Both the position numbers and the translations under genes were made by a program. Of a stretch of DNA of 64,000 nucleotides, positions 10,490 through 48,876 are shown one piece after another. Each line of letters opens with the position of its first letter. Position 1 is the first letter of the stretch. Origin of the DNA: Hyphomicrobiales bacterium (GTDB lineage Bacteria; Pseudomonadota; Alphaproteobacteria; Rhizobiales; Rhizobiaceae); NCBI GenBank assembly GCA_900472785.1, contig UCJH01000032.1, positions 1 through 64,000 on the forward strand, written 5' to 3'. Below the pieces are notes generated by a model that was not told where the DNA came from, did no database searches, and was given only the letters and a program-made list of their open reading frames with translations.

Positions 10490-10507
10490 GACTGGGCGTT
10501 TGGTGTT

Positions 10508-28976: not shown

Positions 28977-29056
28977 ATTTCCTGACCCTTCGGTGTCCTT
29001 TGTCGCGGGCATGCCCGCTACGATTCATTCGGCTCTATGGCCCCGAGCAATAAACG

Positions 29057-29095
29057 AGACAAAATAGCATTATGTCAAGACATAAATAGACAAAA
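29057..29095. promoter_or_regulatory. AGACAAAA box array upstream of the dienelactone hydrolase operon
   Basis: AGACAAAA at 29057 and 29088, and AGACATAA at 29078. The 15 bases TGTCAAGACATAAAT (29073-29087) recur exactly upstream of the isonitrile hydratase gene at 42298-42312, with an AGACAAA box 21 bases before AGACATAA in both. It lies 81-119 bases before the hydrolase start, in the divergent gap to the MocR gene. It is a candidate MocR site. Confidence 0.6.
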
Positions 29096-29415: not shown

Positions 29416-30789
29416 TTGCAGGATAAGTTACTCGACGACAAAACGAAACAAAGCGAAGACAAAATAGACCTGCCAAGCAGCTTGTCGAGGCTTGGTTCGT
29501 CCAGCTCAATCTCGGATATAGCAGGGATACTGAAGTCCGCAATTCATACCGGTGAGATACGCGATGGTTCGCCACTACCGACCATCCGGACCCTCGCTGA
29601 TGCAATCGGCGTTAATCGGAACACAGTTGCTTCCGCCTACCGCAGCCTTTCGGAAATGGGGTTGATAGAGGGCAAGGGCCGTCAAGGCAGTCGAGCCAGA
29701 AGCCCGGGCCCAGTGAGTTCAGCGCGACTGGAACAAGGCATATATGATCTTGCCGGGGGCAACCCTGACCCTCTGCTTCTGCCGGACTTCAATAAGATGC
29801 TAGCCTCGGTGCCTCTACGAGCTCGCAATTATGAAGATGCTCCGATAAATAAGGATCTGATCGACGTCGTCGATGCGATCTTTAAGAGGGACAGCATTCC
29901 CAGCGGTCAGATCTGGCTCGCAAATGGCACATTCGATGCGCTGCAGATTATATTGCGCGTGTCATTGTCGGCGGGTGACGCAATCGCAGTGGAGGATCCC
30001 TGCTTTCTGACGACCGTCGGACTGCTACGCGAGGCAGGTTACAAAGGAATTGCTATGCCAGTTGACGCGGGAGGTGTTACGCCGGATGCGTTGAAAGCGG
30101 CTTTAGCGCAAAATGTCAAAGCAGTCATCCTCACGCCTAGAGCGCATAACCCAATGGGAGGGTCATGGACGCCTGAACGTAGAGATGATCTGCTCAAAGT
30201 AATGCGCGATCATCCTGACGTCCTACTGATCGAAGATGACCATTTCGCGCCTCTGTCGTCGTTTGCGCCGGTTACATTGGTCGAAGAACGGCAAACGCAG
30301 TGGGCAGTGATAAGGTCTGTCTCGAAATACCTCGGTGCCGATTTGCGCTGCGCTTTCGTAAATTCCAGTCCGCAACTTGCCAAGGCTGCCAATAATTTTG
30401 CTGCTGTCACATTCCGGTGGGTGAGCGGGATCCAGCAGTCTGCAGTCTTATCCGCGCTGACCTCTTCTGATTTCGAGACGATGATCGCGAACGCGTCGAA
30501 AGCGTATGCTTCAAGACGCCAGCACATTATCAAGGCTCTGGCCGGTTACGAGATTGACGCCTTTGGCGCCGACGGCATCAATGTCTGGGTACCGGTGGAT
30601 GATGAGCAACTCATGTACCGACATCTGTTGCAGCACGGGTGGATCGTCAGAGCCGGCTCGATCTTTCGGATGGTGAGTGACCAGGCTATTCGCATCAGCA
30701 CGAGTACGATGACCGAGGCGATGGCCACCGAGTTGGCCCGCCAGATTGCGACGGTCCACCGCATGGGCAACGTGGAGCGGGGTGCATGA
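29416..30789 (+). CDS. MocR-type regulator (GntR HTH fused to aminotransferase)
   Basis: 457 aa. A GntR winged HTH (DIAGILKSAIHTGEIRDGSP, then TIRTLADAIGVNRNTVASAYRSL) is joined by a linker to a fold-type I aminotransferase domain (LANGTFDALQIILR, EDPCFLTT, IEDDHFAP). The PLP lysine is Lys304 (SVSKYLGADLR). MocR proteins sense amino acids or vitamers through PLP. The start is TTG at 29416 after GAAGGAAGCGGAAG; there is no in-frame ATG before the HTH. It is divergent from the dienelactone hydrolase operon and upstream of sdaA-glyA. It is the best candidate for the regulator of the AGACAAAA boxes. Confidence 0.9.
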   Translation: MQDKLLDDKTKQSEDKIDLPSSLSRLGSSSSISDIAGILKSAIHTGEIRDGSPLPTIRTLADAIGVNRNTVASAYRSLSEMGLIEGKGRQGSRARSPGPVSSARLEQGIYDLAGGNPDPLLLPDFNKMLASVPLRARNYEDAPINKDLIDVVDAIFKRDSIPSGQIWLANGTFDALQIILRVSLSAGDAIAVEDPCFLTTVGLLREAGYKGIAMPVDAGGVTPDALKAALAQNVKAVILTPRAHNPMGGSWTPERRDDLLKVMRDHPDVLLIEDDHFAPLSSFAPVTLVEERQTQWAVIRSVSKYLGADLRCAFVNSSPQLAKAANNFAAVTFRWVSGIQQSAVLSALTSSDFETMIANASKAYASRRQHIIKALAGYEIDAFGADGINVWVPVDDEQLMYRHLLQHGWIVRAGSIFRMVSDQAIRISTSTMTEAMATELARQIATVHRMGNVERGA

Positions 30790-30815: not shown

Positions 30816-30847
30816 TTGACAAATTGTCTTTAATCGACTAGACAAAA
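30816..30847 (+). promoter_or_regulatory. Putative sdaA promoter with AGACAAAA box
   Basis: TTGACA at 30816-30821 is followed after 17 bases by TAGACA, a possible -35/-10 pair. An AGACAAAA box (30840-30847) overlaps the -10 position. The predicted transcript would begin about 25 bases before the glycine riboswitch, giving both promoter-level and RNA-level control. Confidence 0.5.
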
Positions 30848-30875
30848 ATTGCTTTTGACTTCCGACCTCCGGTGT

Positions 30876-31045
30876 CAGGGCGAGTGGATGGAAGAGATCG
30901 GTCCTGCGCCGACGCCGAAGGAGCAACCGCCCCGGAAACTCTCAGGCAAAAGAACCTCCCCGCTCGGAGACAATCTGGAAAGTGAACGTGTCGCGACACG
31001 ATCCGCCGAAGGGATAATAATCTCAGGCATCAAGACAGATGGGGC
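30876..31045 (+). promoter_or_regulatory. Tandem glycine riboswitch upstream of sdaA
   Basis: Two glycine aptamers in series. The first contains GGAAGAG, GCCGAAGGAGCAA and CTCTCAGGCAAAAG; the second contains TCTGGAAAG, GCCGAAGGGATAA, ATCTCAGGCA and a closing CAGATGGGG. These are the conserved glycine riboswitch blocks in the right order and spacing. The element ends about 25 bases before the sdaA start, so it probably controls translation or an expression platform over the ribosome site. Glycine would be expected to turn the gene on. Confidence 0.93.
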
Positions 31046-31069
31046 CACTCGTTCAAATGAGGGGTCACC

Positions 31070-32499: not shown

Positions 32500-33786
32500 A
32501 TGAATTATATTGCACAGCCTCAAGTCGGCTCGGACGTGGAGATCGATCCTATCTTCCACATGATTGATAGGGAGTTTATTCGGCAAGAGAGCCAGATCGA
32601 ACTGATTGCTTCCGAAAATATCGTGTCCGCCGCCGTCCTGCGTGCGCAGGGCTCCGTTTTAACTAACAAGTATGCCGAGGGTTATCCTGGCAAGCGATAC
32701 TATGGCGGTTGTGAAGTCGTCGACGAAGTCGAGGCGCTTGCCATTGAGCGAGCCCGGGAATTGTTCGGCTACCAATATGCCAACGTGCAACCGCATTCTG
32801 GCGCTCAGGCCAATACAGCCGTGTTTTATGCGCTGATGCAGCCGGGGGACACGTTTCTTGGCCTGTCGCTCGCCCACGGCGGTCATCTGACGCATGGAGC
32901 AGGGGTTACGGTATCGGGCAAATGGTTCAAGTCGGTCCACTATCAGGTTCGCGAGGACAACCATTTGATCGACATGGATGAAGTGCGCGACTTGGCGCGC
33001 GCCAATAGTCCTAAAGTCATCATCGCCGGCGGATCTGCCTACCCGAGGACAATCGATTTTGCGGCGTTCCGTGCTATCGCTGACGAGGTAGGCGCCAAGT
33101 TGATGGTCGACATGGCGCACTTTGCAGGTCTTGTGGCAGGCGGGACCTACCCGTCACCCTTCCCACATGCCCACATTGCAACAACGACCACCCACAAAAC
33201 CTTGCGAGGTCCACGTGGTGGAATGATCCTGACGGATGATGCCGATCTTGCAAAGAAAATCAATTCGGCCGTATTTCCAGGTCTTCAAGGCGGTCCGCTC
33301 ATGCATGTCATTGCTGCCAAGGGCGTTGCATTTGGTGAAGCGTTGAAACCCGAATTTAAGCTGTACGCCCGTGACGTCATTGACAACGCCAGAGCCATGG
33401 CTGCTCCACTTGTAGAGAGCGGTCTATCGCTCGTTTCTGGCGGAACAGATTGCCATCTCTTGCTCGTTGATCTTCAAAACAAGAATGTCACCGGCAAGGA
33501 TGCAGAGGCCGCTCTCGAACGCGCCGGTCTGACGTGCAACAAGAATGGCATCCCCTTTGACCCCCAGAAGCCGGCGATCACTAGCGGTATCAGGCTTGGC
33601 ACGCCAGCCGGAACAACCCGCGGATTCAAGGCGAGAGAGTTCACTCAGATCGGCGAATGGATTTCGAAAGTATTGGATGGTTTAGCGAGAGACAGTGCTA
33701 ATGGGAACAACGGCCTGGAGCGGTCGATCCGTTCCGAGGTCGCAACGCTGTGCGCGGCGTTCCCATTGGCAGAAAAGTTCCGCTAA
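32500..33786 (+). CDS. glyA: Serine hydroxymethyltransferase
   Basis: 428-aa PLP enzyme that interconverts serine and glycine with (methylene-)tetrahydrofolate. Key motifs are [33 protein letters not shown] and the PLP lysine Lys233 in [21 protein letters not shown] precedes the ATG. It shares the riboswitch-controlled transcript with sdaA. A housekeeping copy is expected elsewhere in the genome, so this one is probably catabolic, making serine from glycine and GCS-derived methylene-THF. Confidence 0.96.
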
Positions 33787-34161: not shown

Positions 34162-35148
34162 TTATTTTTGAATTTGTTGGGCTGCCTCGTGAAGTTTCTT
34201 TTTGCGATTGGCCTTGAGGCGCGCGAAGTCATCGCCAGCGTGGTGCGACGAGCGCGTCAGCGGACTCGACGACACCATCAAAAACCCCTTGGTATAGGCG
34301 ACAGTCTCGTAGGACTTGAACCCCTCCGGGGTGACGAAGCTTTCGACCTTGTGATGCTTACGGGTGGGCTGAAGATACTGGCCGATAGTCAGGAAATCGA
34401 CGTCCGCCGTGCGCAGATCGTCCATCAGTTGCAGGACTTCGTTACGTTCCTCGCCGAGACCCACCATGATACCCGATTTGGTGAACACGCTGGGATCCAG
34501 TTCCTTCACACGCTGCAGCAGGCGGATGGAGTGGAAATAACGGGCGCCGGGACGCACAGTCAGATAGTTGCCCGGCACGGTTTCCATATTGTGGTTGAAG
34601 ACGTCCGGCTTTGCAGCGACGACGCGCTCCAGCGCGCCGGGCTTCTTGAGAAAGTCTGGGGTCAGGATTTCGATCGTCGTGTTCGGCGAGGCGACGCGGA
34701 TTGCCCAGATCACCTTTTCGAAATGCTCTGCGCCACCGTCTGCAAGGTCATCGCGGTCGACGGAGGTGATGACGACATGCTCCAGACCCATCTGCTTGAC
34801 GGCCTTGGCGACGTTTTCCGGCTCGTCCATGTCAAGTGCATTCGGCTTGCCGGTTGCTACGTTGCAGAAGGCACAGGCGCGGGTGCAGATCTCGCCCATG
34901 ATCATGAACGTCGCGTGCTTCTTGTCCCAGCACTCGCCGATATTGGGGCAGCCTGCTTCTTCGCAGACCGTCACCAGCTTATGTTCCTTCACGATGGAGC
35001 GGGTTTCCTGATAGCCCTTGGAAACCGGAGCGCGCACGCGAATCCATTCCGGTTTGCGCATGACCTCGTTGTCGGGCCTGTGCGCCTTTTCCGGATGGCG
35101 GATGCGCTTTTCGTCGGAGAGAGCCGTTTTGTCGAGAATGGTGACCAT
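34162..35148 (-). CDS. lipA: Lipoyl synthase
   Basis: 328-aa radical SAM enzyme that inserts two sulfurs into octanoyl groups on lipoyl domains such as GcvH. Both clusters are intact: auxiliary Cys62, Cys67, Cys73 ([14 protein letters not shown]) and radical SAM Cys88, Cys92, Cys95 (ICTRACAFC). The C-terminal Ser ligand region [11 protein letters not shown] is present. In rhizobia the housekeeping lipA normally lies with pyruvate dehydrogenase genes, so this is probably a second copy dedicated to the glycine cleavage proteins beside it. No lipB is visible. Confidence 0.95.
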
Positions 35149-35228: not shown

Positions 35229-36674
35229 CTAGGAGTTGAGAACACGCCCATACGCATCGAGGACGCTTTCCTTAATCGTTTCCGAGATCGTAGGATGCGG
35301 GAAGATGGTGTGCATGAGGTCAATTGAAGACGCCCCAGCAGTCATTGCAACCACAAAACCCTGAATCAGTTCGGTCACCTCGGCGCCAACCATGTGGGCG
35401 CCTAAAAGCTCATCGGTCTGTTTGTCGAAGATCGTCTTGACCATGCCTTGGCTTTCGCCGAGCGCCACCGCCTTGCCGTTCGCCGCAAACGAGAAGCGGC
35501 CGACGCGGATGTCGCGGCCCTGTTCCTTCGCCTTGGCTTCGGTCAGACCGACCGAAGCGACCTGCGGATTGCAATAGGTGCAGCCCGGGATCTTCAGCTT
35601 GTCCGTCGGATGGACGTTCGGCAGGCCGGCGATCTTTTCGACGCAGATGACGGCTTCATGCTCGGCCTTGTGGGCGAGCAGGGGCGGGCCGGCGACGTCG
35701 CCGATCGCGTAGATGCCAGGCACGTTGGTCTTGCCGTAGCCGTCGATGACGATGAAGCCGCGATCGGTCTTCACGTCGACGGCCTCAAGGCCGATGCCTT
35801 CGATATTGGCCTGCACGCCGACGGCGGAGATCATCCGGTCGGCCGTGATCTGCTGCGTCTTGCCGTCCTTCAATTCGATGGTCGCGGTGATCGAGTTGGC
35901 GGCCTTCTCGACCTTGGCGACCTTGGCTTCGAGCAGGATCTTCATGCCCTGGCGTTCGAACTGCTTTCTGGCGAGCGCGGAGATTTCCGCATCCTCGACC
36001 GGCATGACCTGGCTCATGATCTCGACGACCGTGACCTCGACGCCCATGGTGCGGTAGAACGAGGCGAATTCGATGCCGATGGCGCCCGAGCCCATGACGA
36101 GTAGCGACTTCGGCATTTCCTCCGGCTTCATCGCCTCGAAATAGGTCCAGATCAGCTTGCCGTCCGGCTCGATGCCCGGCAGCGCGCGCGGACGGGCGCC
36201 GGTCGCGACGATGATGTGCTTGGCGGTATAGGTGCCCTCGCCCAGCGTGTTCTTGGGGATCGGGCCGACCGGCTCTACCGGCTTCTTGGCGGTCTTCGAC
36301 ACCACGACTTCGCCGGGCTTGGTGATTTTCGCCTCGCCCCAGATGATATCGACCTTGTTCTTCTTGAACAGGAAACCGACGCCGTTGTTCATCCGATGGG
36401 CAATGCCGCGCGAGCGGAAGACGATCGCCTTGACGTCCGGCTTGATCGTGCCTTCCAGCGTCAGGCCATAATCCTTGGCATGGGTCGCGGTATGCATGAC
36501 ATCGGCGGAGCGCAGCAGCGCCTTGGTCGGGATACAGCCCCAGTTGGAGCAGATGCCGGCGAGATGTTCGCGCTCGACGACGGCAACCTTCATGCCGAGC
36601 TGGGATGCGCGGATGGCGGCGATATACCCGCCCGGGCCTGAACCGATAACGATGAGGTCGTAGGATTGAGCCAT
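35229..36674 (-). CDS. lpdA: Dihydrolipoyl dehydrogenase (L-protein/E3)
   Basis: 481-aa flavoprotein disulfide reductase that reoxidises dihydrolipoyl-GcvH with NAD+. It has FAD motif GSGPGGY, redox-active Cys42 and Cys47 in ICSNWGCIPTKALLR, NAD motif GSGAIGIEFASF, and the C-terminal His-Glu of HTIFPHPTISE. It lies between gcvP and lipA on the same strand and so is probably the L-protein of this glycine cleavage system. Codon use changes within the gene: the last 230 bases are less GC-biased than the rest. Confidence 0.95.
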   Translation of the reverse strand: MAQSYDLIVIGSGPGGYIAAIRASQLGMKVAVVEREHLAGICSNWGCIPTKALLRSADVMHTATHAKDYGLTLEGTIKPDVKAIVFRSRGIAHRMNNGVGFLFKKNKVDIIWGEAKITKPGEVVVSKTAKKPVEPVGPIPKNTLGEGTYTAKHIIVATGARPRALPGIEPDGKLIWTYFEAMKPEEMPKSLLVMGSGAIGIEFASFYRTMGVEVTVVEIMSQVMPVEDAEISALARKQFERQGMKILLEAKVAKVEKAANSITATIELKDGKTQQITADRMISAVGVQANIEGIGLEAVDVKTDRGFIVIDGYGKTNVPGIYAIGDVAGPPLLAHKAEHEAVICVEKIAGLPNVHPTDKLKIPGCTYCNPQVASVGLTEAKAKEQGRDIRVGRFSFAANGKAVALGESQGMVKTIFDKQTDELLGAHMVGAEVTELIQGFVVAMTAGASSIDLMHTIFPHPTISETIKESVLDAYGRVLNS

Positions 36675-36822: not shown

Positions 36823-39687
36823 TTATTCCGCCGCCTCTGCATAATTTTCCAATGGGGGGCAGGTGCAGATGAGGTTGCGGTCGCCGACAACATTGTCGAT
36901 GCGGTTGACCGGTGGCCAGTATTTGTCGACCCGGAAGGAGCCCGGTGGGAAGGAAGCCTGTTCTTTAGAGTATGGACGATCCCATTCTCCAATCAGGTCT
37001 TCCACCGTATGGGGTGCGTTCTTCAGCGGGTTGTTCGTCTTGTCCATCCGCCCGTCCTCGATGGCGCGGGCCTCCTCGCGGATCGCCAGCATGGCATCGC
37101 AGAAGCGATCGATCTCGGCCTTGGTCTCCGACTCGGTCGGTTCGATCATCAGCGTGCCGGCGACCGGCCAGCTCATGGTCGGCGCATGGAAGCCGCAGTC
37201 GATCAGGCGCTTGGCCACGTCATCGACGGAAACGCCGGCCGACGCATTGAGCGGCCGCGTGTCGATGATGCATTCATGCGCGACACGGCCTGCTTCGGAC
37301 TTGTAGAGGACATCGTAGGCCCCCTTCAGGCGTGCGGCGATATAGTTGGCGTTGAGGATCGCCACCTTGGTCGCCTGTGTCAGCCCCTCGCCGCCCATCA
37401 TCAGGCAATAGGACCACGAGATCGGCAGGATGGAAGGCGAGCCGAACGGGGCGGCCGAGACCGCGCCATCGCGGCCATCGCTTTCCGGGTGGCCGGGCAG
37501 ATAGGCTGCCAGATGCGCCTTGACGCCAATCGGACCCATGCCAGGACCACCGCCGCCATGCGGAATGCAGAACGTCTTGTGGAGGTTGAGGTGGGAGACG
37601 TCCGAGCCGATGTCACCGGGACGCGACAGGCCGACCATGGCATTCATGTTGGCGCCATCGAGATAGACCTGGCCGCCATGGGCGTGGGTGATTTCGCAGA
37701 TCTCTTTCACCGTCTCCTCGAACACGCCGTGTGTCGAAGGATAGGTGATCATGCAGGCCGAGAGGTTTGCGGCGTACTGCTCCGCCTTGGCGCGGAAATC
37801 GTCGAGATCGATATCGCCGTTTTCACGTACCTTCACGACGACCACCTTCATGCCGACCATCTGCGCAGACGCCGGGTTGGTGCCGTGAGCCGAGGTGGGG
37901 ATGAGGCAGACGTCGCGATGGGTATCGCCATTGGCGATATGGTAGTTGCGGATGGTAAGGAGGCCGGCATATTCTCCTTGCGCACCGGAATTCGGCTGCA
38001 TGGAAAAGGCGTCGTAGCCGGTGATCTGGCAAAGCTTTGCCGACAGATCGTCGATCATCTCCTTGTAGCCCAGCGCCTGATCGACCGGCACGAAGGGGTG
38101 GATGTCGGCAAATTCCGGCCAGGTGATCGGCAGCATTTCCGCCGTTGCATTGAGCTTCATCGTACATGAACCGAGCGGGATCATCGCCCTGTCGAGCGCG
38201 AGATCGCGATCCGAAAGCCGGCGAATATAGCGGGTCATCTCGCTTTCGGCTCGGTTCATGTGGAAGATCGGATGGGTCATGTAGGCCGACTTGCGCAGAA
38301 GCGTATTCGGAAGGCGGTATTCCGGTTCGAAATCGGAGACCTTGAAATCGCCGCCGAAAGCGCGCCAGACGGCTTCCAGCGTCGCAGGCCGGGTGCGTTC
38401 GTCGAGCGACATGCCGATCTTCGTTTCGCCGACCTTGCGCAGGTTGACGCCCTCCGCCACGGCGGCGCGCATCACGAGGCCCTGCATGTGGCCGACTTCT
38501 ACGGTGATGGTGTCGAAGAACGTGTCCGGCTCGACGCTATAGCCGAGCTTTTCGAGCCCCTTGGCCATGAGAACGGCCTTCTTGTGAACCTGCTGGGCGA
38601 TCGCCTTCAACCCTTGAGGACCATGGAAAACGCCGTACATGGACGCCATGACGGCCAGCAGCACCTGGGCGGTGCAGATGTTGGAGGTCGCCTTTTCGCG
38701 ACGGATATGCTGTTCGCGGGTCTGCAGCGACAGGCGGTAGGCGCGATTGCCGCGGGCATCGACCGAAACGCCGACGAGGCGGCCGGGCATGGCGCGCTTG
38801 TGGGCGTCCTTGACCGCCATATAGGCCGCGTGCGGGCCTCCGTAACCGACTGGAACGCCGAAGCGCTGCGACGAGCCGATGGCGATGTCGGCGCCCATTT
38901 CGCCAGGAGATTTCAGCAGCGTCAGCGCCAGCATATCGGCCGCGACGGCCGCAACCGCGCCTGTCTGGTGCAGGCGGGAAATCAGGCCGGTGAAATCACG
39001 CACATGGCCGTGGGTGCCGGGATATTGGAAGATCGCGCCGAAGACATCGACCGGATCGAGATCGGTCATCGGGTCGCCAACGATGACTGTCCAGCCGAGC
39101 GGGGCCGCACGGGTTTCGATCAGCGCAATGGTCTGCGGATGGCAGGCATGGTCGACGAAGAAGGCGGTTGCCTTCGACTTGGCCTGGCGCTGGCAAAGCG
39201 CCATGGCTTCTGCCGCAGCCGTCGCTTCGTCGAGCAGAGACGCGTTGGCGACGTCGAGACCGGTCAGGTCGCAGACCATCGTCTGGAAATTCAAAAGCGC
39301 CTCGAGGCGGCCCTGGCTGATCTCCGGCTGGTAGGGCGTGTAGGCCGTATACCAGGCGGGATTTTCCAGAATATTGCGCTGGATCACCGGCGGGGTGATG
39401 GTGCCGTAATAGCCCTGGCCGATCAGCGAGACGAGCGCCTTGTTCTTGTTCGCCGTATCGCGCAGCTTGTCGAGTGCTTCACGCTCGGTGAGCGCCGGAC
39501 CCCAAGCGAGCGGCACGCCCTGACGGATAGACGAGGGGACCGTTGCATCAATCATTCGGTCGAGCGTCGGGTAACCGATCACCTTCAGCATCTCGGTCAT
39601 TTCAGACGGTGAGGGGCCGATATGGCGACGGTTGGCGAAGTCGTAGGGCTGGTAGTCGGTGAAATGGAAATCGGTGGAATCGCTCAT
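36823..39687 (-). CDS. gcvP: Glycine dehydrogenase (decarboxylating), P-protein
   Basis: 954-aa PLP-dependent P-protein of the fused, homodimeric type. It decarboxylates glycine and transfers the aminomethyl group to lipoyl-GcvH. Features are [14 protein letters not shown] at the start, [35 protein letters not shown] in the N-terminal half, and the PLP lysine near residue 705 in [17 protein letters not shown]. It overlaps gcvH by ATGA. The base composition is the high-GC core-genome type. It ends 149 bases before lpdA. Confidence 0.97.
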
Positions 39688-40046
39688 GCGATGAGATCCT
39701 TGTAAGCGGCTTCGTCGAGCAGCGCGTCGGCATCGGCAACGTTCTTCAGCTTCAGCTTGAAGAACCAGCCAGCGCCCTGCGGGTCGGAATTGACGAGCGA
39801 CGGGTCATCAACGATCGCCTGGTTGACTTCGACGATCGTGCCATTCAGCGGACAATAGACATCGGAGGCCGCTTTGACGCTCTCGACGGTGGCACCGTTG
39901 CCGTCTTTCACCAATTCCTGATCAACTTTGGGAAGCTCTACGAAAACGAGGTCGCCAAGCTGCTCGGCGGCGTAGCTCGTGATGCCGACGGTCGCGACGT
40001 CGCCGTCTAGTTTCAACCATTCGTGTTCGGCGGTAAATTTCAACAT
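39684..40046 (-). CDS. gcvH: Glycine cleavage system H-protein
   Basis: 120-aa lipoyl carrier. The lipoylation site is Lys58 in [20 protein letters not shown] near the start and [15 protein letters not shown] near the end are typical. It shuttles the aminomethyl group between P-, T- and L-proteins. It lies 19 bases after gcvT and overlaps gcvP. LipA encoded nearby can supply its cofactor sulfur. Confidence 0.97.
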
Positions 40047-40065: not shown

Positions 40066-41202
40066 TCAGCGTTTGTAGGTTGGGGTGATGAAAGGAAGGG
40101 TCGCGACGGTCATGGGCAAGTATTTGCCACGAACTTCCGCAAACACCTGGGTGCCGGCGGCAGCGTGGGAGGTGGGCAGATAGCCCATGGCAACCGGGCC
40201 TTCGACCGTCGGGCCAAATGTGCCGGATGTCACTTCGCCAAGTTCTGTGTTGCCTTCCGCATCCGCGAAGAGCTTGGCGTGCGAGCGCACCGGCGCCTTG
40301 CCTTCCGGCTTCAGGCCGACGCGGCGGCGGGTGGTGCCGTTGGCGAGTTCGCCCAGAATGCGTGCGGCTCCGGGGAAGCCACCCTCACGGTCGCCGCCAG
40401 CCTTGCGGGCTTTCTGCAGTGCCCATTCGAGCGAGGCTTCGATCGGCGAGGTCGTGGTGTCGATATCGTTTCCGTAAAGACACAGGCCGGCTTCGAGACG
40501 CAGCGAATCGCGGGCGCCGAGGCCGATTGGCTTACAGTCCTTGTGTTCCAGCAATGCCGTTGCCAGCTCGAAGGCGTGCAAGGCAGAAATTGATACCTCA
40601 AAGCCATCTTCGCCGGAGTAGCCTGAGCGAGCGACGATGCAGGCTGCACCGTGGTAAACTAGTTCTCTCACGTCCATGAATTTCATGTGAGCGACGTCCG
40701 GCCAGATCGCAGCGAGGACAGCTTCTGCGCATGGGCCCTGAAGGGCTATCAAGGCACGGTCTTCGATTAGCTCGACATCGCAGCTGATCAGTTTCGCCTT
40801 CATATGAGCGACGTCCTGATCCTTGCAGGCCGCGTTGACGACGACGAAGAGATGATCGCCGCGATTGGTGATCATTAGGTCGTCGAGAATGCCGCCACTT
40901 TCATCGGTGAAAAAACCATAGCGCTGGCGTCCGGGCTTCAAGCCAAGAATATCGACAGGCACAAGCTTTTCGAGCGCAAGCGCTGCATCCTCATAGCTGC
41001 CGCTCTTAGCCTTCACAATGACCTGGCCCATATGGGAAACGTCGAACAGGCCGGCGGCGGCGCGGGTGTGGAGATGTTCCTTCATCACCCCCGCCGGATA
41101 CTCTACTGGCATTTGATATCCCGCAAACGGGACCATACGACCCTGAAGGAGTAAGTGAAGCGTATGCAGGGGTGTTTGCTTCAATTGTGTCGATTGTTGC
41201 AT
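40066..41202 (-). CDS. gcvT: Aminomethyltransferase, T-protein
   Basis: 378-aa T-protein, releases ammonia and makes 5,10-methylene-THF from aminomethyl-GcvH. Motifs include [30 protein letters not shown] and the folate-site Asp in [10 protein letters not shown]. The ATG at 41202 follows GGGAG; a TTG seven codons earlier was rejected. It is the first gene after a tandem glycine riboswitch and heads gcvT-gcvH-gcvP. The first half of the gene is visibly less GC-biased at third positions than the second half. Confidence 0.95.
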
Positions 41203-41261
41203 CTGAGAGCTCCCGCTCGCCAAGCATCAGCTTGACGGCCTATTGCCGTGCGTTACCGCAC

Positions 41262-41430
41262 CGGGAGCCCCATCTGTATCTTTGCCTGAGATTGTTATCC
41301 CTTCGGCGAGCTCGGTTTCGACCGAGACTACTTTCCAGATTGTTGACAACGAAAGGTCCACTTTGCCTGAGAGTTTCCGGGGCGGTTGCTCCTTCGGCGC
41401 CGGCCAAGGCCGATCTCTTCCGATCGTTTT
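41262..41430 (-). promoter_or_regulatory. Tandem glycine riboswitch upstream of gcvT
   Basis: On the minus strand: a first aptamer with GGAAGAG, GCCGAAGGAGCAA and CTCTCAGGCAAAG, then a second with TCTGGAAAG, GCCGAAGGGATAA and ATCTCAGGCAAAGATACAGA followed by TGGGG. It is the normal gcv position. The GAAGGAGCAACCGCCCCGGA block is identical to the one before sdaA, so the two leaders are closely related. Confidence 0.95.
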
Positions 41431-41468
41431 TCTGTTTAGACTGCCTCGCCAGACGGCAAGGCGAGGTG

Positions 41469-41490
41469 GCCCGGCGGCCAGCCGCCGGGC
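41469..41490 (-). terminator. Hairpin after the isonitrile hydratase-like gene
   Basis: Perfect 10-bp arms GCCCGGCGGC and GCCGCCGGGC with a 2-base centre, 7 bases past the stop codon. There is no T-run. It probably limits read-through into the gcv riboswitch region. Confidence 0.5.
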
Positions 41491-41496
41491 ACGTTG

Positions 41497-42216
41497 TCAT
41501 TCTGCTGCTGCCGGTCTCGTAAGGCCAAGGCGAGCATCAATCCGCTTTGCGGTCTCAATGCGCTCGGCGGTCAGCTTCGCTACCGACGTCCGAGACCGCT
41601 CGAGAATATGAGCGGGCGCGCGGTCGGGCGTGCCACTATCGAAGGGCGGCTCGGGATGATATTGCATATACAATTGGATCTGCTTGGCAACATCTTCGCC
41701 GCGCACCATCGCAGCGAGCTGGAGAGCGCCGTCGATACCAGAGGTAACGCCGGCCGCGAATACCCAGTTGCCGTCGATGACAACACGTTCATTTACTGAA
41801 ATTGCGCCGAGATGCGGCAGGACGTCCATTGCAGCCCAGTGCGTGGTTGCTCGGCGACCTTTGAGGAGGCCCGCAGCACCAATGAGCAAGGCACCGGTGC
41901 AGACAGAAAGAACGTACTCTGACTGTTCGGCATGCTTACGAATGAAGCCGAGGATTTCCTCGTCCTCCATAAATGCCTGCTGTCCTGGCCCACCTGGAAC
42001 ATGAAGGATGTCAAGCTTAGGCATCTCATCCAGCGTTAGGGTCGGGTAAAGCGGAAGACCATGGAAATCCTTTACGACCTCCATCTTCTTGGCAGCCACA
42101 TGGACCGTCGCGTTAGGGATCGCCGCCAAGACCTCATAGGGTCCAGTAAGGTCAATCTGATCTAGACCTGGAAAAAGCAGGGAACCGATCTGCAGGTGTT
42201 TGTCCGGTGCAAACAT
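41497..42216 (-). CDS. inhA: Isonitrile hydratase-like DJ-1/PfpI protein
   Basis: 239-aa DJ-1 superfamily protein. The order of motifs follows Pseudomonas isonitrile hydratase closely: QIDLTGPYEVLAAIP (Asp22), DILHVPGGPG, the nucleophile Cys106-Thr107 in SVCTGALLIGAAGLLKGRR then ATTHWA, and PPFDSGTPDRAPAH. InhA hydrates isonitriles to N-formamides. Activity on that substrate is inferred, as related GATase1-like proteins may serve other roles. It is transcribed toward gcvT and divergent from the permease genes, and its promoter shares a 15-base exact match with the dienelactone hydrolase promoter. Confidence 0.8.
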   Translation of the reverse strand: MFAPDKHLQIGSLLFPGLDQIDLTGPYEVLAAIPNATVHVAAKKMEVVKDFHGLPLYPTLTLDEMPKLDILHVPGGPGQQAFMEDEEILGFIRKHAEQSEYVLSVCTGALLIGAAGLLKGRRATTHWAAMDVLPHLGAISVNERVVIDGNWVFAAGVTSGIDGALQLAAMVRGEDVAKQIQLYMQYHPEPPFDSGTPDRAPAHILERSRTSVAKLTAERIETAKRIDARLGLTRPAAAE

Positions 42217-42281
42217 AAAGAAAAACTCCTCTCAAAGTGCCTGTGCCAGCACTCAAACGTCCCGGCTAGGAACGTAATCAC

Positions 42282-42313
42282 AGACAAAGAGAGTCTTTGT
42301 CAAGACATAAATT
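42282..42313. promoter_or_regulatory. AGACAAA/AGACATAA operator upstream of inhA
   Basis: AGACAAAG at 42282 and AGACATAA at 42303, a 21-base step, including TGTCAAGACATAAAT (42298-42312) identical to 29073-29087. It lies 66-97 bases before the inhA start, in the same orientation to the gene as the copy before the dienelactone hydrolase. Confidence 0.6.
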
Positions 42314-42388
42314 TCAAAGTCTAAGCCAAAAATAGGCGCTTTTCCGTACGTGCGATCAAAAATTGCCGATAGCCCGGCCCTTGCGTGC

Positions 42389-42426
42389 AGACAAAAAACA
42401 TTGTAGCCAAACAATGCTAGACAAAA
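42389..42426. promoter_or_regulatory. Paired AGACAAAA boxes upstream of the permease operon
   Basis: AGACAAAA at 42389-42396 and 42419-42426, about three helical turns apart, ending 29 bases before the DUF485 start. CTAGACAAAAAT also occurs before sdaA. Direct repeats of this sort fit MocR-type dimers. Confidence 0.55.
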
Positions 42427-42455
42427 ATAGCAAAGGGAACAGTAGGAGGAAAAAT

Positions 42456-42740
42456 ATGTCTGCCAAGCCCCGTTATCTGGTTCATCCAGCTATAGTGGAC
42501 GCAATCCGCAAAAGGCGGTCGATCACGCTCACTTTGAGCGTGATTATGATCGTGCTCTATTTCGCATTCATGTTCACGTTCGGTTTCAACAAGCCGCTTC
42601 TGAGCACCATGATTACGCCTGAACTTTCAATCGCACTGATCAGTGCACCGATTTTGATCATAAGCTCAGTCATCCTTTCACTCATCTACGTTTTATGGGC
42701 CAATCGCGTGTTCGATGTGACCCTTCGCGATAATCGATAG
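42456..42740 (+). CDS. DUF485 membrane protein
   Basis: 94-aa protein with two transmembrane helices (TLSVIMIVLYFAFMFTFGF and ISAPILIISSVILSLIYVLW). DUF485 proteins are encoded directly before ActP-type sodium/solute symporters and are presumed partners of the transporter. It has a strong ribosome site, TAGGAGG, before the ATG at 42456, and an 7-base gap to the permease gene. Confidence 0.9.
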   Translation: MSAKPRYLVHPAIVDAIRKRRSITLTLSVIMIVLYFAFMFTFGFNKPLLSTMITPELSIALISAPILIISSVILSLIYVLWANRVFDVTLRDNR

Positions 42741-42747
42741 GTGCAGC

Positions 42748-44355
42748 ATGAATCCGTCACAAAACCCGCTTGCAATTCTATTCTTTGGGGTCTTCATAGC
42801 TCTAACATTGGGGATCACATACTTCGCCGCCCGCCGGACGAAAACAACTGAACATTTTTTTGCCGCTGGAGGCAATATCACGTCGTGGCAGAACGGATGG
42901 GCACTTGCGGGGGACTTCCTCAGCGCCGCGGCTCTTCTTGGCATAGCGGGCACGATCACCGCAAATGGATTTGATGGAATGATCTATTCCATCGGATGGC
43001 TCGTTGGCTGGCCGATCATGCTCTTTCTCGTGGTCGAGCCTTTGCGAAACATCGGGAAGTTTACCATTTCGGACGTCGTTGCATATCGCTTGCAGCAAAA
43101 GTGGATCCGTTCTGCGGCGGCACTTGGCAGTCTAACTGTCATCGTCTTTTACTTGATCGCTCAAATGGTCGCCACAGGTAGCCTCATCAAGTTGCTGTTC
43201 GGGCTTTCGTATCCGGCGGCGGTTGTCATCGTCGGCTCAGCGATGCTTGCATATGTTTTGTTTGGCGGGATGTTGGCCACGACGTGGGTCCAAATCGTAA
43301 AAGCGGTTCTGCTGATGTGCGGCGTTGGCATCATGGCCGGTCTTGTACTCGCCAGATTCAATTGGAATCCGCTGGAACTTCTGGGGGCAGCCTCTGCCCA
43401 ATTCGGTGAGCGTGTCCTTGTCCCTGGGACAAAGGTGGTGCCAGCTGGTTGGGAAACAATATCTCTTGGGCTCGCACTCATGTTTGGGACTGCTGCCATG
43501 CCCCATATCCTGATGCGCGTCTATACAGTGAGCGACGTAAAGGAAGCGAGGCAGTCGATCCTGTATGCGACTGGCATCATCGGCACATTCCACCTTATGG
43601 TTTTCATCATCGGGTTTGGCGCCATGGTGATTGTAGGTCCCCAAGTGGTCGCAACCGCGGGGGGTGGGGGCAACATGGCGGCACCGCTCCTGGCCCTCGC
43701 AGTAGGCGGAAATGCCTTCTTTGGCTTCATCTGCGCGGTCGCGTTCGCCACGATGCTTGCCGTCGTCGCGGGCTTGACTTTGTCCGGCGTCGCCACGCTA
43801 ACGCACGATATCTATGCGAACGTAGTCCGTGCCAACACCTGTACCGACAGCGAAAAAATGCGCGTCGCGCGCCTATCGACCGTTGCAATTGCTGTCGCCG
43901 CCGTCCTGCTTGGCATCCTTTTCGAAGGTCAGAACGTCGCATTCATGGTGGGCTTGGCATTCGCCGTCGCTTGTTCTGCAAACTTCCCGACGCTGATGCT
44001 TGGCATCCTTTGGCGAAAACTGACGACAGCTGGAGCCGTATCGAGTATCTTGGTCGGTACTGTCGTCACAGTGACGATGATCATCTGCTCGCCCACCATT
44101 CAGGTTGATGTCTTGGGACGCACAGTCGCGGAACTTGCTGACAAGTGGTGGTTCATCTCTCTCAGGAACCCCGCGATCATTTCAATGCCGCTTTCCTTCC
44201 TGACCGCTGTCGTAGTTTCGTTGGTTACCCGTGAGCGAGAAGCGGAAGCGAAGTTTGAAGAGATGCGCCATAAGATCGTCTTCGGGGACGTTCCTGAGCG
44301 ACAGGTCGTCGAACCCACGAACGTCAATGACGCGGTAGTAGCGCGCGGTCTGTGA
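42748..44355 (+). CDS. Sodium:solute symporter, ActP-like
   Basis: 535 aa, about 13 membrane helices, SSS family. Segments such as TTEHFFAAGGNITSWQNGWALAGDFLSAAALLGI and GFICAVAFATMLAVVAGLTLSGVATLTHDIYANVV match the acetate/glycolate permease ActP group. It should import a small monocarboxylate; in this setting glycine, glycolate or an N-acyl or N-formyl glycine is conceivable, but the sequence alone does not decide. It is coupled to DUF485 upstream and closed by a terminator before pyc. Confidence 0.88.
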   Translation: MNPSQNPLAILFFGVFIALTLGITYFAARRTKTTEHFFAAGGNITSWQNGWALAGDFLSAAALLGIAGTITANGFDGMIYSIGWLVGWPIMLFLVVEPLRNIGKFTISDVVAYRLQQKWIRSAAALGSLTVIVFYLIAQMVATGSLIKLLFGLSYPAAVVIVGSAMLAYVLFGGMLATTWVQIVKAVLLMCGVGIMAGLVLARFNWNPLELLGAASAQFGERVLVPGTKVVPAGWETISLGLALMFGTAAMPHILMRVYTVSDVKEARQSILYATGIIGTFHLMVFIIGFGAMVIVGPQVVATAGGGGNMAAPLLALAVGGNAFFGFICAVAFATMLAVVAGLTLSGVATLTHDIYANVVRANTCTDSEKMRVARLSTVAIAVAAVLLGILFEGQNVAFMVGLAFAVACSANFPTLMLGILWRKLTTAGAVSSILVGTVVTVTMIICSPTIQVDVLGRTVAELADKWWFISLRNPAIISMPLSFLTAVVVSLVTREREAEAKFEEMRHKIVFGDVPERQVVEPTNVNDAVVARGL

Positions 44356-44392: not shown

Positions 44393-44466
44393 TTCACAAA
44401 TCCAGAACAATTTGGCTTGGAAAGCATCGCGTGGTGGATTCACGCGGGGCGCCATGTCCATCAACT

Positions 44467-47400
44467 ATGGCGTCCGCTGTGAAAGTCAGAAAAATACTGG
44501 TTGCCAATCGTTCCGAAATTGCGATCCGCGTATTCCGCGCCGCCAATGAGCTCGGAATCAAGACCGTGGCGATCTGGGCGGAGGAGGACAAGCTTTCGCT
44601 GCACCGGTTCAAGGCGGACGAAAGCTATCAGGTCGGCCGTGGCCCACATCTGGAAAAAGACATGGGGCCAATCGAAAGCTATCTTTCGATTTCCGAAGTG
44701 ATCCGCGTGGCAAAGCTGTCCGGCGCCGATGCGATCCATCCGGGCTACGGGCTTTTGTCGGAAAGCCCGGAATTCGTCGAGGCCTGCAATGCCGCCGGCA
44801 TCATCTTCATCGGCCCGCGGCCGGACACGATGCGCCAGCTGGGCAACAAGGTGGCGGCCCGCAATCTCGCGATTTCCGTCGGTGTCCCGGTCGTGCCGGC
44901 AACCGAGCCGCTGCCAGACGACATGGCGATCGTGGCCCGCATGGCCGAAGATATCGGCTACCCGGTCATGCTCAAGGCCTCCTGGGGCGGCGGCGGACGC
45001 GGCATGCGCGCCATTCGCGATCCGAAGGATCTGGCCCGCGAAGTGGTGGAAGCCAAGCGCGAGGCGATGGCGGCCTTCGGCAAGGACGAGGTCTATCTGG
45101 AAAAGCTGGTCGAGCGCGCCCGCCACGTGGAAAGCCAGATCCTTGGCGACACGCATGGCAATGTGGTGCACCTGTTCGAGCGTGACTGCTCTATCCAGCG
45201 CCGCAACCAGAAAGTCGTCGAGCGCGCGCCGGCGCCCTATCTTTCCGAGGCGCAGCGCCAGGAACTGGCCAGCTATTCGCTGAAGATCGCTGCTGCGACG
45301 AATTATGTCGGAGCCGGCACCGTCGAATACCTGATGGATTCCGATACCGGCAAGTTCTATTTCATCGAGGTCAATCCGCGCATTCAGGTCGAGCACACGG
45401 TGACCGAGGTGGTGACCGGCATCGATATCGTGAAAGCGCAGATCCATATCCTCGAAGGGTTTGCCATCGGCACGCAGGAATCGGGCGTCCCGGCGCAGGC
45501 CGATATCCGCCTCAACGGTCATGCGCTTCAGTGCCGCATCACGACGGAAGACCCGGAGCACAATTTCATTCCGGATTACGGCCGCATCACCGCCTATCGG
45601 TCGGCGGCGGGCTTCGGCATCCGTCTCGACGGCGGCACTGCCTATTCCGGCGCGGTCATCACCCGCTATTACGATCCGCTGCTGGTCAAGGTGACAGCGG
45701 CCGGCTCCACGCCGCAAGAGGCGATCAGCCGCATGGACCGGGCCTTGCGCGAATTCCGCATCCGCGGTGTCGCAACCAACCTGACCTTCCTGGAAGCGAT
45801 CATCGGGCATCCGAAATTCCGCGACAATTCCTATACGACGCGGTTCATCGACACGACGCCGGAGCTGTTCGAGCAGGTGAAGCGGGCCGACCGCGCCACC
45901 AAGCTTTTGACCTATCTCGCCGATGTCACCGTCAACGGCCACCCGGAAACCAAAGGGCGGCCGGAACCGGCGGCGCAGGCGGCAAAGCCGGTTCTGCCTT
46001 ACATCAACGGCGATATACCCGACGGCACGAAGCAATTGCTGGATATGCTCGGCCCCAAGAAATTCGGCGAATGGATGCGCAATGAAAAGCGTGTGCTTCT
46101 GACCGATACGACGATGCGCGACGGGCACCAGTCGCTGCTGGCGACGCGCATGCGCACCTATGACATCGCGCGCGTGGCCGGAGTCTATGCCCGGGCGCTG
46201 CCGAACCTGTTTTCGCTGGAATGCTGGGGCGGCGCCACCTTCGACGTGTCGATGCGGTTCCTCACCGAGGATCCGTGGGAGCGCCTTTCCATGGTTCGCG
46301 AAGGCGCGCCGAACCTTTTGTTGCAGATGCTGCTGCGCGGGGCCAACGGCGTCGGCTACACCAACTATCCCGACAATTTGGTGAAATACTTCGTTCGCCA
46401 GGCCGCCCGTGGCGGCATCGATCTCTTCCGGGTTTTCGACTGCCTGAACTGGGTCGAGAACATGCGCGTATCGATGGATGCGGTGCAGGAGGAGAACAAG
46501 CTGTGCGAGGCGGCGATCTGCTATACGGGCGATCTGCTGAACTCCGCGCGGCCGAAATACGACCTCAAATATTATGTCGCGCTTGCCGAGGAACTGGAAC
46601 GGGCCGGGGCGCATATCATTGCGCTGAAGGACATGGCTGGATTGCTGAAGCCGGCGGCTGCGAGGGTTCTGTTCAAGGCATTGCGGGAAGCAACCTCGCT
46701 GCCGATCCATTTCCACACGCACGACACGTCCGGCATCTCGGCTGCTACAGTGCTGGCTGCTGTGGATGCCGGCGTCGATGCCGTCGATGCAGCGATGGAT
46801 GCTTTTTCGGGCAATACCTCACAGCCTTGCCTCGGTTCGATCGTCGAAGCGCTGGCAGGATCGGAGCGCGATCCTGGCCTCGATTCGGAATGGATCAGGA
46901 AGATATCGTTCTACTGGGAAGCGGTGCGTGGCCAGTATGCGGCGTTCGAGACCGATCTCAGGGGGCCGGCATCGGAAGTATACCTGCATGAAATGCCGGG
47001 CGGCCAGTTCACCAACCTCAAGGAACAGGCTCGTTCGCTCGGCCTCCACACGCGCTGGCACAAGGTGGCGCAGACCTATGCGGACGTGAACCAGATGTTC
47101 GGCGACATCGTCAAGGTGACGCCATCGTCGAAGGTGGTGGGCGACATGGCGCTGATGATGGTCAGCCAGGACCTGACGGTTGCCGATGTCCAAAATCCGG
47201 CGAAGGACATCGCTTTCCCCGATAGCGTCGTCTCGATGCTGAAGGGCGATCTCGGACAGCCTCCCGGCGGCTGGCCAGAAGCGATCCAGAAAAAGGCGCT
47301 GAAGGGCGAGGCGCCTTATACGGAAGTGCCCGGTTCGCTGCTGGCCGATGCGGATCTCGATGCGGAACGGAAGGTCATCGAGGACAAGCTGGAGCGCAAG

Positions 47401-47940
47401 ATCGACGATTTCGAATTTGCGTCCTACCTGATGTATCCGAAAGTGTTTACCGACTTCGCGCTGGCTGCGGATACCTACGGTCCCGTCTCGGTGCTGCCGA
47501 CGCCCAATTATTTCTACGGGCTGAAGGACGGCGAGGAAATGTTCGCCGACATCGAAAAGGGCAAGACGCTCGTCGTGGTCAATCAGGCGATGAGCGGCAC
47601 GGATGCCCAGGGACTGGTGACGGTCTTCTTCGAACTGAACGGCCAGCCGCGCCGCATCAAGGTGCCGGACAGGGCGCATGGAGCATCCGGCGGCGCCGTT
47701 CGCCGCAAGGCGGAACCGGGCAATGCCGCGCATCTCGGCGCTCCCATGCCGGGCGTGATTTCCCGCGTCTTCGTGACGGCGGGCCAGGCGGTCAAGGCCG
47801 GCGATGTGCTATTGTCCATCGAAGCGATGAAGATGGAAACCGCGCTGCATGCGGAAAAGGACGGCACCGTCGCCGAAATTCTCGTCAAGGCCGGCGATCA
47901 GATCGACGCCAAGGATCTGCTGATCATTTATGGCAGCTGA
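44467..47940 (+). CDS. pyc: Pyruvate carboxylase
   Basis: 1,157-aa biotin enzyme, pyruvate plus bicarbonate to oxaloacetate with ATP. The order is biotin carboxylase (KILVANRSEIAIRVFRAANE, ATP loop KASWGGGGRGMR), carboxyltransferase (LLTDTTMRDGHQSLLATRMR, metal site HFHTHDTSG) and C-terminal biotin carrier with EAMKMET. It is highly similar throughout to Rhizobium etli Pyc. The start is set at the ATG at 44467, since a GTG at 44431 adds 12 residues with no family likeness; no strong ribosome site is seen. In this island it would feed serine-derived pyruvate into the TCA cycle or gluconeogenesis. The housekeeping copy would be elsewhere. Confidence 0.97.
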   Translation: MASAVKVRKILVANRSEIAIRVFRAANELGIKTVAIWAEEDKLSLHRFKADESYQVGRGPHLEKDMGPIESYLSISEVIRVAKLSGADAIHPGYGLLSESPEFVEACNAAGIIFIGPRPDTMRQLGNKVAARNLAISVGVPVVPATEPLPDDMAIVARMAEDIGYPVMLKASWGGGGRGMRAIRDPKDLAREVVEAKREAMAAFGKDEVYLEKLVERARHVESQILGDTHGNVVHLFERDCSIQRRNQKVVERAPAPYLSEAQRQELASYSLKIAAATNYVGAGTVEYLMDSDTGKFYFIEVNPRIQVEHTVTEVVTGIDIVKAQIHILEGFAIGTQESGVPAQADIRLNGHALQCRITTEDPEHNFIPDYGRITAYRSAAGFGIRLDGGTAYSGAVITRYYDPLLVKVTAAGSTPQEAISRMDRALREFRIRGVATNLTFLEAIIGHPKFRDNSYTTRFIDTTPELFEQVKRADRATKLLTYLADVTVNGHPETKGRPEPAAQAAKPVLPYINGDIPDGTKQLLDMLGPKKFGEWMRNEKRVLLTDTTMRDGHQSLLATRMRTYDIARVAGVYARALPNLFSLECWGGATFDVSMRFLTEDPWERLSMVREGAPNLLLQMLLRGANGVGYTNYPDNLVKYFVRQAARGGIDLFRVFDCLNWVENMRVSMDAVQEENKLCEAAICYTGDLLNSARPKYDLKYYVALAEELERAGAHIIALKDMAGLLKPAAARVLFKALREATSLPIHFHTHDTSGISAATVLAAVDAGVDAVDAAMDAFSGNTSQPCLGSIVEALAGSERDPGLDSEWIRKISFYWEAVRGQYAAFETDLRGPASEVYLHEMPGGQFTNLKEQARSLGLHTRWHKVAQTYADVNQMFGDIVKVTPSSKVVGDMALMMVSQDLTVADVQNPAKDIAFPDSVVSMLKGDLGQPPGGWPEAIQKKALKGEAPYTEVPGSLLADADLDAERKVIEDKLERKIDDFEFASYLMYPKVFTDFALAADTYGPVSVLPTPNYFYGLKDGEEMFADIEKGKTLVVVNQAMSGTDAQGLVTVFFELNGQPRRIKVPDRAHGASGGAVRRKAEPGNAAHLGAPMPGVISRVFVTAGQAVKAGDVLLSIEAMKMETALHAEKDGTVAEILVKAGDQIDAKDLLIIYGS

Positions 47941-47991: not shown

Positions 47992-48876
47992 TTGAAATCG
48001 TTTGTTCTGATTGCATCATTCCCTTCGAAAGGTGGCGCGTTAGCGCCTTTCATAGATTATATCGAGCGTGCGGAATGCGATATTATAGAAAGCTCTCTAT
48101 TTACCGATGAAGAGCAAGGGAAGATCTTCATCCGCATCGTTTCTAAGTCTCCAGCTAATATCGATCTGGCAGTGCTAGTGAGCGGAATTGGCCCTATAGC
48201 TAAGAAGTTCGGCATGGAATGGCATGTATTTGATGCGGATGAGCGCATGAAAGTGCTGCTGATGGTCTCTCGTTTTGGCCATTGCCTGAATGACCTTCTC
48301 TATCGCTGGAAGATTGGCGCCCTTCCGATCGACATCGTCGGCGTCGTTTCCAACCATTTCGACTACCAGAAACTGGTCGTCAACAACGACATTCCTTTCC
48401 ACCACATCAAGGTGACGAAGGAAAACAAGCCGCATGCCGAAGCCCAGTTGATGGAAGTGGTCGAATCCTCCGGCACCGAACTTGTCGTGCTTGCCCGCTA
48501 TATGCAGGTTCTGTCCGACCAGCTCTGCCAGAAGATGTCGGGCAAGATCATAAACATCCACCACTCCTTCCTGCCGAGCTTCAAGGGTGCCAACCCTTAC
48601 AAGCAAGCCTATACCCGCGGCGTCAAGCTGATCGGCGCAACCGCGCACTATGTCACCGCCGATTTGGATGAAGGCCCGATCATCGAGCAAGATACGGTGC
48701 GGATCACTCATGCGCAATCGGCGGAGGATTATGTTTCGCTCGGCCGCGATGTGGAGAGCCAGGTCCTGGCCCGTGCCATCCATGCGCATATCCATCACCG
48801 CACTTTAATCGATGGCAACCGGACCGTCGTTTTCCCGCCGAGCCCGGGCTCGTACGCCTCTGAACGAATGGGATAG
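47992..48876 (+). CDS. purU: Formyltetrahydrofolate deformylase
   Basis: 294 aa: an N-terminal ACT-like domain (residues 1-85) and a formyltransferase-fold catalytic domain with INIHHSFLPSFKGANPY and ATAHYVTADLDEGPIIEQ. It hydrolyses 10-formyl-THF to formate and THF, freeing folate when one-carbon supply from glycine is high. The start is TTG at 47992 after GGTGAGG. Composition shifts near 48310: the first 300 bases are AT-richer with different codon use, and the rest is high-GC core type. It follows pyc by 51 bases. Confidence 0.93.
   Translation: MKSFVLIASFPSKGGALAPFIDYIERAECDIIESSLFTDEEQGKIFIRIVSKSPANIDLAVLVSGIGPIAKKFGMEWHVFDADERMKVLLMVSRFGHCLNDLLYRWKIGALPIDIVGVVSNHFDYQKLVVNNDIPFHHIKVTKENKPHAEAQLMEVVESSGTELVVLARYMQVLSDQLCQKMSGKIINIHHSFLPSFKGANPYKQAYTRGVKLIGATAHYVTADLDEGPIIEQDTVRITHAQSAEDYVSLGRDVESQVLARAIHAHIHHRTLIDGNRTVVFPPSPGSYASERMG

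Follow-up and report, generated by a model that had tools for sequence, protein, structure and literature searches.

The InhA-like gene analysed here belongs to a rare, co-regulated gene set that probably feeds some nitrogen compound into glycine/serine breakdown. Our best explanation, held with about even confidence, is that positions 24954-48876 of the window (the whole stretch of 64,000 nucleotides analysed; Table 1) form a mobile catabolic regulon under its own MocR, that is, a MocR-controlled island in which an amidohydrolase, together with an enzyme of the InhA clade, sets free an amino acid for combustion by a dedicated glycine/serine route. The island looks like a compact MocR-inhA-M20-DLH-ActP module combined with a private route that leads from glycine via serine and pyruvate to oxaloacetate.

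Table 1. Features of the catabolic island in window coordinates, with the evidence for each
Feature	Position	Strand	Evidence
Chemoreceptor (MCP with Cache domain), probable regulon member	24954..26777	-	Pfam MCPsignal 1.3e-48, dCache_2, sCache_2
Three AGACAA repeats 5′ of chemoreceptor gene	26866..26905	.	AGACAAA at 26888 and 26898
M20 amidohydrolase (ArgE/DapE type)	27120..28265	-	Pfam Peptidase_M20 4.5e-34; 53% to L098; metal-site motifs intact by eye
Dienelactone-hydrolase-family protein (DLH), first gene of DLH-M20 unit	28296..29012	-	Pfam DLH 1.7e-50
Operator-like region 5′ of DLH-M20	29057..29094	.	perfect TTTATGTCTTGAC (29074-29086, -) between two AGACAAA
MocR-type regulator, GntR and aminotransferase domains	29416..30789	+	Pfam GntR, Aminotran_1_2; NCBIfam PtsJ 361 bits, cut-off 573
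Operator-like inverted AGACAA pair ahead of sdaA riboswitch	30824..30848	.	2 mismatches to box
Tandem glycine riboswitch of sdaA-glyA	30878..31048	+	RF00504, 51.7 and 40.8 bits
L-serine ammonia-lyase SdaA	31070..32488	+	TIGR00720 617 bits
Serine hydroxymethyltransferase GlyA	32500..33786	+	PRK00011 624 bits
Lipoyl synthase LipA	34162..35148	-	TIGR00510 368 bits
Dihydrolipoyl dehydrogenase (L protein)	35229..36674	-	phmmer 2eq6 4.2e-102
GcvP	36823..39687	-	PF02347 600 bits
GcvH	39684..40046	-	phmmer 2ka7 9.6e-38
GcvT	40066..41223	-	phmmer 3gir 1.4e-85
Tandem glycine riboswitch of gcvTHP, 65 bp past inhA stop	41264..41432	-	RF00504, 53.7 and 37.2 bits
InhA-like DJ-1/PfpI protein, intact	41497..42216	-	ORF, ATG start, 239 aa
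Operator-like region 5′ of inhA	42282..42311	.	perfect TTTATGTCTTGAC (42299-42311, -) and AGACAAA (42282)
Two AGACAAA 5′ of DUF485-actP	42389..42425	.	motif scan
DUF485 membrane protein	42456..42740	+	Pfam DUF485 1.6e-15; ATG picked by eye inside ORF 42363-42740
ActP/MctC-like sodium:monocarboxylate symporter, under ActP cut-offs	42748..44355	+	Pfam SSF 6.2e-93; PRK09395 625 bits vs 750
Pyruvate carboxylase	44431..47940	+	phmmer 2qf7 2354 bits
Formyl-THF deformylase PurU	47992..48876	+	TIGR00655 299.5 bits, cut-off 285.95

The InhA-like protein and its clade

The inhA frame is preceded by an AGGAG-type ribosome-binding site, read by eye, and its product matches Pfam DJ-1_PfpI (1.7e-25), the top PDB matches being the isocyanide hydratase (ICH)/InhA chains of P. 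fluorescens (6ni5, 1.5e-63; 3non, 5.3e-63). Alignment with the P. fluorescens ICH gave 108 identical residues out of 224 aligned (48%) and placed Asp22, Cys106 and Thr107 at ICH Asp17, Cys101 and Thr102, respectively. PPFDSG (190-195) falls inside the proline-rich stretch aligned to ICH 185-190, and the IJ-linker residues P188, P190, P191 and F192 are retained. All of the residues from which the initial annotation had read an ICH-like pattern (Asp22, Cys106-Thr107 and PPFDSG) were located as claimed. Equivalents of D17, C101 and T102 are invariant in the three groups compared within a 55-row alignment (10/10, 15/15 and 13/13 rows), and Thr102 belongs to the catalytic set of ICH along with the other two. 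The mechanism of ICH, including the roles of Asp17 and Cys101, has been described, as has the proline-rich IJ linker that distinguishes ICH homologues within the DJ-1 superfamily (PMC10971408, in part). The window InhA retains the catalytic machinery of ICH with some of its surroundings altered. ICH is a bacterial enzyme that detoxifies isonitriles, converting them to N-formamides. The label "isonitrile hydratase-like" is correct for the window protein, the hydratase activity itself being only putative. With the Pseudomonas enzymes the protein shares the DJ-1/PfpI family, the Asp-Cys-Thr set and the proline-rich linker; it differs from them in belonging to a long-stem sister clade and in its MocR-M20-ActP context, and is known from its sequence.

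A maximum-likelihood tree of 55 rows (the window protein, ICH and 53 loci) did not group the window InhA with the characterised ICH, but placed it in a separate sister clade of 25 rows, whose support is 100/100 and whose stem measures 0.55 changes per column, with ICH outside it. Several positions mark this clade against the ICH side, where 13 of the 19 other rows were compared and six long-branch rows were excluded, among them D19, which is fixed (25/25 rows), G163 (25/25), R172 (24/25) and H72 (23/25), each against 0/13 ICH-side rows.

The window protein is the sole full-length homologue in the host genome; five weaker in-genome matches, which cover only part of the query at 30-32% identity and come from open frames of 331-372 aa, are probably AraC-type regulators. 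Homologues were found in 15 of 81 genomes close to the host at 1e-30 and in 64 of 397 genomes of the order at 1e-60, the host counted in both, and within the genus in 4 of 25 other genomes at no more than 46% identity. The nearest named relative is that of Rhizobium lusitanum (79%), followed at 66-70% by those of a Rhodospirillales MAG, a Rhodobacteraceae MAG, Aquabacter sp. P-9, a Rhizobiales MAG and Xanthobacter tagetidis; the InhA of a Thalassospira marina plasmid is 67% identical to the window protein. This patchy spread suggests horizontal transfer.

The operator-like motif and the MocR regulator

The window contains 16 copies of AGACAAA, where shuffled sequence gave 5.06 (0/100 shuffles reach as many); the 2333 intergenic bases of the island contain 8, where base shuffling gave 0.34 (0/2000 reach as many). 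The AGACAAA / TTTWTGTCTTGAC motif lies 5′ of inhA, DLH-M20, sdaA-glyA, DUF485-actP and the chemoreceptor gene. The full box, TTTWTGTCTTGAC, is perfect at four places in the 5.38 Mb host genome, two of which precede DLH-M20 and inhA; the other two, one close to an ABC transporter and one close to a cytochrome c1 gene, have no evident link to the island pathway in their surroundings. A reversed control pattern was found at 5 places in the host genome, against 10 for the box. At the promoter of mocR itself, the nearest AGACAAA besides one inside the 5′ coding end of the gene are the DLH sites, about 330 bp off, and the 65-bp leader gap of gcvTHP has no motif. A consensus scan of 41150-42760 gave no sigma-70-like match, so no promoter was assigned there. 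The initial annotation had regarded the M20 gene as co-regulated with inhA, and the operator-like motif common to the two promoters bears this out at the level of sequence. We infer that MocR binds this candidate operator.

Related genomes repeat the arrangement (L numbers denote loci). The box stands 5′ of inhA at 0-1 mismatch in L096, L097, L098 and L111 and at 2 mismatches in L099, 70-83 bp ahead of the inhA match start in all five. At 0-1 mismatch it was found at no place in 38 control loci totalling 702 kb; one 1-mismatch box in L078, outside the control set, is about 2.4 kb from inhA and not 5′ of it. All five box-bearing genomes encode a MocR at least 46% identical to that of the window, adjacent in L096, L098, L099 and L111. 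In Aquabacter (L097), which has the box 5′ of inhA, a MocR of 50% identity is encoded elsewhere in the genome, in a neighbourhood (L139) of aldo-keto reductase, MFS and TctC-type genes with no M20 or inhA. At 1e-60 no such MocR was found in R. lusitanum (L094), which also lacks the box, and L095 has the MocR and only a partial motif with no full box. The Cupriavidus MocRs are only 33-36% identical to that of the window, and their promoters show other repeats. No other MocR-inhA island was found at E 1e-95 among 396 genomes of the order and 384 of the class, in a search that scored four candidates per genome and from which distant ones could escape.

The arrangement resembles the known MocR-TF regulons in having the MocR beside its putative targets, a repeated candidate operator and PLP-enzyme targets, which in those regulons include GlyA-family SHMT (Suvorova & Rodionov 2016, PMC5320631, in part). 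It differs in content, since the words glycine, hydratase, nitrilase and PtsJ are absent from the main text of that survey. PtsJ, a MocR-like regulator of B6 salvage, is the best NCBIfam match of the window MocR; however, the score is under the cut-off (Table 1) and the gene has no B6 gene context. From the gene set we predict a MocR regulon so far undescribed, recognised by a specific operator, and an island that would be gated by a PLP regulator together with glycine riboswitches.

Glycine and serine genes

Both tandem glycine riboswitches exceed the RF00504 gathering score. As in known glycine-riboswitch gcvTHP operons, tandem aptamers stand ahead of gcvT, whereas the window copy differs from those operons in being a duplicate carried by an accessory island and in following inhA. 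Because the gcv riboswitch lies downstream of inhA and ahead of gcvT, it is not in the inhA leader, which corrects such a placement. Two strong, consecutive, GC-rich hairpins without a U-run (41425-41510; -38.2 kcal/mol, z -2.9) lie between inhA and this riboswitch and may or may not end the inhA transcript, so that read-through from the inhA promoter into gcvTHP, possible from the sequence, is uncertain.

Second genomic copies of GcvP (contig C51), SHMT, SdaA and pyruvate carboxylase lie outside the island, and a second tandem glycine aptamer pair is also present on contig C51. This duplication supports glycine as a sink in the host. Within the host genome the link to glycine is strong, resting on the second copies, on the motif plus riboswitch at sdaA-glyA and on the motif heading DUF485-actP-pyc-purU, and glycine is a plausible destination in this host. 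PurU converts 10-formyl-THF to formate and thereby releases it, so formate would be an outlet of the route rather than something consumed by it; among the 16 annotated island genes there is no formate consumer. Of the earlier proposal that the neighbouring genes handle both glycine and formate, the glycine half is upheld by the second copies and the formate half has to be given up. The island pyruvate carboxylase is a full-length match to the solved 2qf7/3tw6 enzyme.

Outside the window the association is different. None of 52 other inhA neighbourhoods (11-21 kb each) contains gcvT, gcvH, gcvP, sdaA or purU, and glyA was found in one only, L096, where it stands at the contig end and heads a Liv-type transporter row. 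Linkage of inhA to gcv, sdaA and purU was seen in this window only, and homologous islands keep inhA and M20 without the glycine genes. Such a distribution would suit two neighbouring insertions, the glycine genes and the MocR module, with sdaA and gcv under general riboswitch control of glycine overflow and their closeness to inhA accidental; gcv and pyc-purU are also found separately on rhizobial replicons. We regard this as quite unlikely, as an AGACAA pair stands ahead of sdaA-glyA and AGACAAA ahead of DUF485-actP-pyc-purU, the genes of the module are interleaved with the glycine genes, and in L096 it is glyA that heads the transporter row.

As a separate observation, lipA (90% and 77% identical to that of the window, respectively) lies near inhA in L094 of R. 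lusitanum (5744-11575), where it is followed by lipoyl-domain hydrolase and PDH E1 genes, and in L089 (3198-4205; inhA at 9603-10259).

Partner enzymes in other genomes and candidate substrates

Among the other 24 InhA-clade loci, MocR lies near inhA in seven, ActP in six, M20 (at least 42% identity) and nitrilase in five each and a metallo-beta-lactamase-fold hydrolase in three, against none of any of these in the 29 other tree loci; L113, which is another slice of the L115 region, is excluded from both groups. On two Cupriavidus necator plasmids inhA and M20 are immediate neighbours, and in L095, L096 and L098 they lie no more than 3 kb apart, so the expected co-occurrence of inhA with M20, sdaA and gcv genes holds for M20 and fails for sdaA and gcv (0/52). 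InhA, M20 and MocR occur together in three alphaproteobacterial islands and on two Cupriavidus plasmids. On the plasmid of C. necator C39 the order is DLH, MocR (divergent), inhA, M20, DUF485 and actP, a set that matches that of the window. On pBB1, MocR, inhA, M20 and actP are side by side, with a DUF485-sized ORF in the place of DUF485 followed by an FAD oxidoreductase. A DLH search of plasmids at 1e-60 found none, despite the presence of a 45% homologue beside MocR-inhA-M20 in L116. A Liv-type ABC transporter is also found in L095, L096 and L099.

The inhA-linked M20 proteins come from more than one branch of the M20 family, that of the window grouping with those of L096 and L098. A precedent for deformylation of an N-formyl amine is the YlmB-type formylaminopyrimidine deformylase of thiamin salvage, an M20 protein. 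In Bacillus, YlmB converts FAMP to AmMP (PMC10470507, in part). M20 relatives at 43-44% identity lie beside TenA (L117) or beside a putative thiamine gene and an ABC transporter (L118); the window M20 stands apart from both, and thiamin salvage was rejected because the TenA-linked M20s fall in a different branch. Also set aside were the M20 genes near inhA in eight f31-family loci (L050, L080, L081 and L083-L087; 28-32% identity), which were not counted as linkage since the M20 of L081 (neighbours from L086) is an acetylornithine deacetylase in an argD-argF-hsp33 row.

A nitrilase gene lies within 6 kb of inhA in L095, L099, L074, L075 and L079, and the last four of these loci have no M20. The FPE, HHRKLVPT and CGEN motifs of the inhA-linked nitrilases look intact, with 54-83% mutual identity among the four aligned (L075 is not in the alignment). 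Nitrilases in five related loci point toward N-acyl or nitrile-derived compounds, which are candidates for the substrate alongside isonitriles; that an isonitrile is the first substrate we consider doubtful, though well short of far-fetched. Isocyanoacetate and N-formylglycine are speculative candidates. The nitrilases, together with the separate clade on its long stem and its marker residues, would also fit an InhA clade that is not an isonitrile hydratase but an altered-pocket DJ-1/PfpI enzyme whose substrate is an electrophile of a different kind (an aldehyde, or a nitrile-derived or activated acyl compound) in a MocR-run pathway, the M20 or nitrilase carrying out C-N hydrolysis. All ICH catalytic residues and the IJ-linker prolines are retained, however, and 48% identity is in the range where chemistry is often conserved, so that we see this as a serious but somewhat unlikely alternative.

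Stand-alone detoxification was also considered, in which InhA would destroy chalkophore or antibiotic isonitriles under the same regulator with no metabolic tie to M20 or glycine. Many homologues do stand alone or beside an AraC/GlxA-type regulator, and antibiotic or copper-binding activity is frequent among natural isonitriles (PMC10971408, in part). The recurrence of window-clade InhA with M20, ActP and MocR, and the presence of their operator-like motif at inhA, speak against such a role and make it very unlikely.

In the preferred reading, that of a MocR-controlled catabolic island, MocR would bind the motif and sense a pathway amine or amino acid, probably through its PLP domain as is usual in the family, and ActP/DUF485 would import a small carboxylate. 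The InhA-clade enzyme would hydrate this carboxylate to an amide-type product by attack of Cys106 with Asp22 as the acid; M20 would then hydrolyse the product to free glycine or serine, with DLH also taking part in the case of an ester or lactone substrate. By way of the second GcvTHP/Lpd/LipA, GlyA, SdaA and Pyc, glycine would be converted via serine and pyruvate to oxaloacetate; PurU would discard surplus one-carbon units as formate. With a tandem glycine riboswitch in the leaders of both gcvTHP and sdaA-glyA, signals from both MocR and glycine would be required before the route is expressed. A narrower form, assimilation of a small isocyano or N-formyl acid through chemoreceptor, ActP-type import, InhA2-clade hydration and M20 deformylation to glycine, which a dedicated glycine system under MocR and riboswitch gating would burn, is in our view decidedly unlikely.

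The structure of isonitrile hydratase has been studied in depth; in the literature examined, no established physiological role for the enzyme was found. Searches on isonitrile/isocyanide hydratase, isonitrile catabolism, isocyanoacetate and N-formylglycine deformylase, with most subscription papers outside their coverage, showed no report of such a pathway among the matches listed. For isocyanoacetate as a bacterial substrate, the matches listed looked like synthetic chemistry and a stricter search gave none. The recurrent regulated set, in which an InhA-clade enzyme is accompanied by a carboxylate symporter, an amino-acid sensor and either an amidohydrolase or a nitrilase, is a concrete place to seek a physiological role of the enzyme. 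If isocyano or N-formyl acid assimilation were true, isonitriles would be a nutrient and not just a poison, and even a substrate other than an isonitrile would mean a new route into glycine.

Several further genes were noted around these loci. A three-subunit molybdenum aldehyde oxidoreductase (Pao-like) row (19881-23769) adjoins the island, an IS66 family transposase (13090-14682) lies upstream of it, and an abortive-infection-like Abi_2 protein (50763-51455) is encoded directly past it. On the Thalassospira plasmid (L111, 13011-17310), a molybdenum hydroxylase row with maturation genes lies beside MocR-inhA and is followed by a second MocR-type gene. Within 9 kb, Cupriavidus pBB1 (L113, 923-9485) carries four genes of the DJ-1/PfpI family, including one for an AraC-type regulator.
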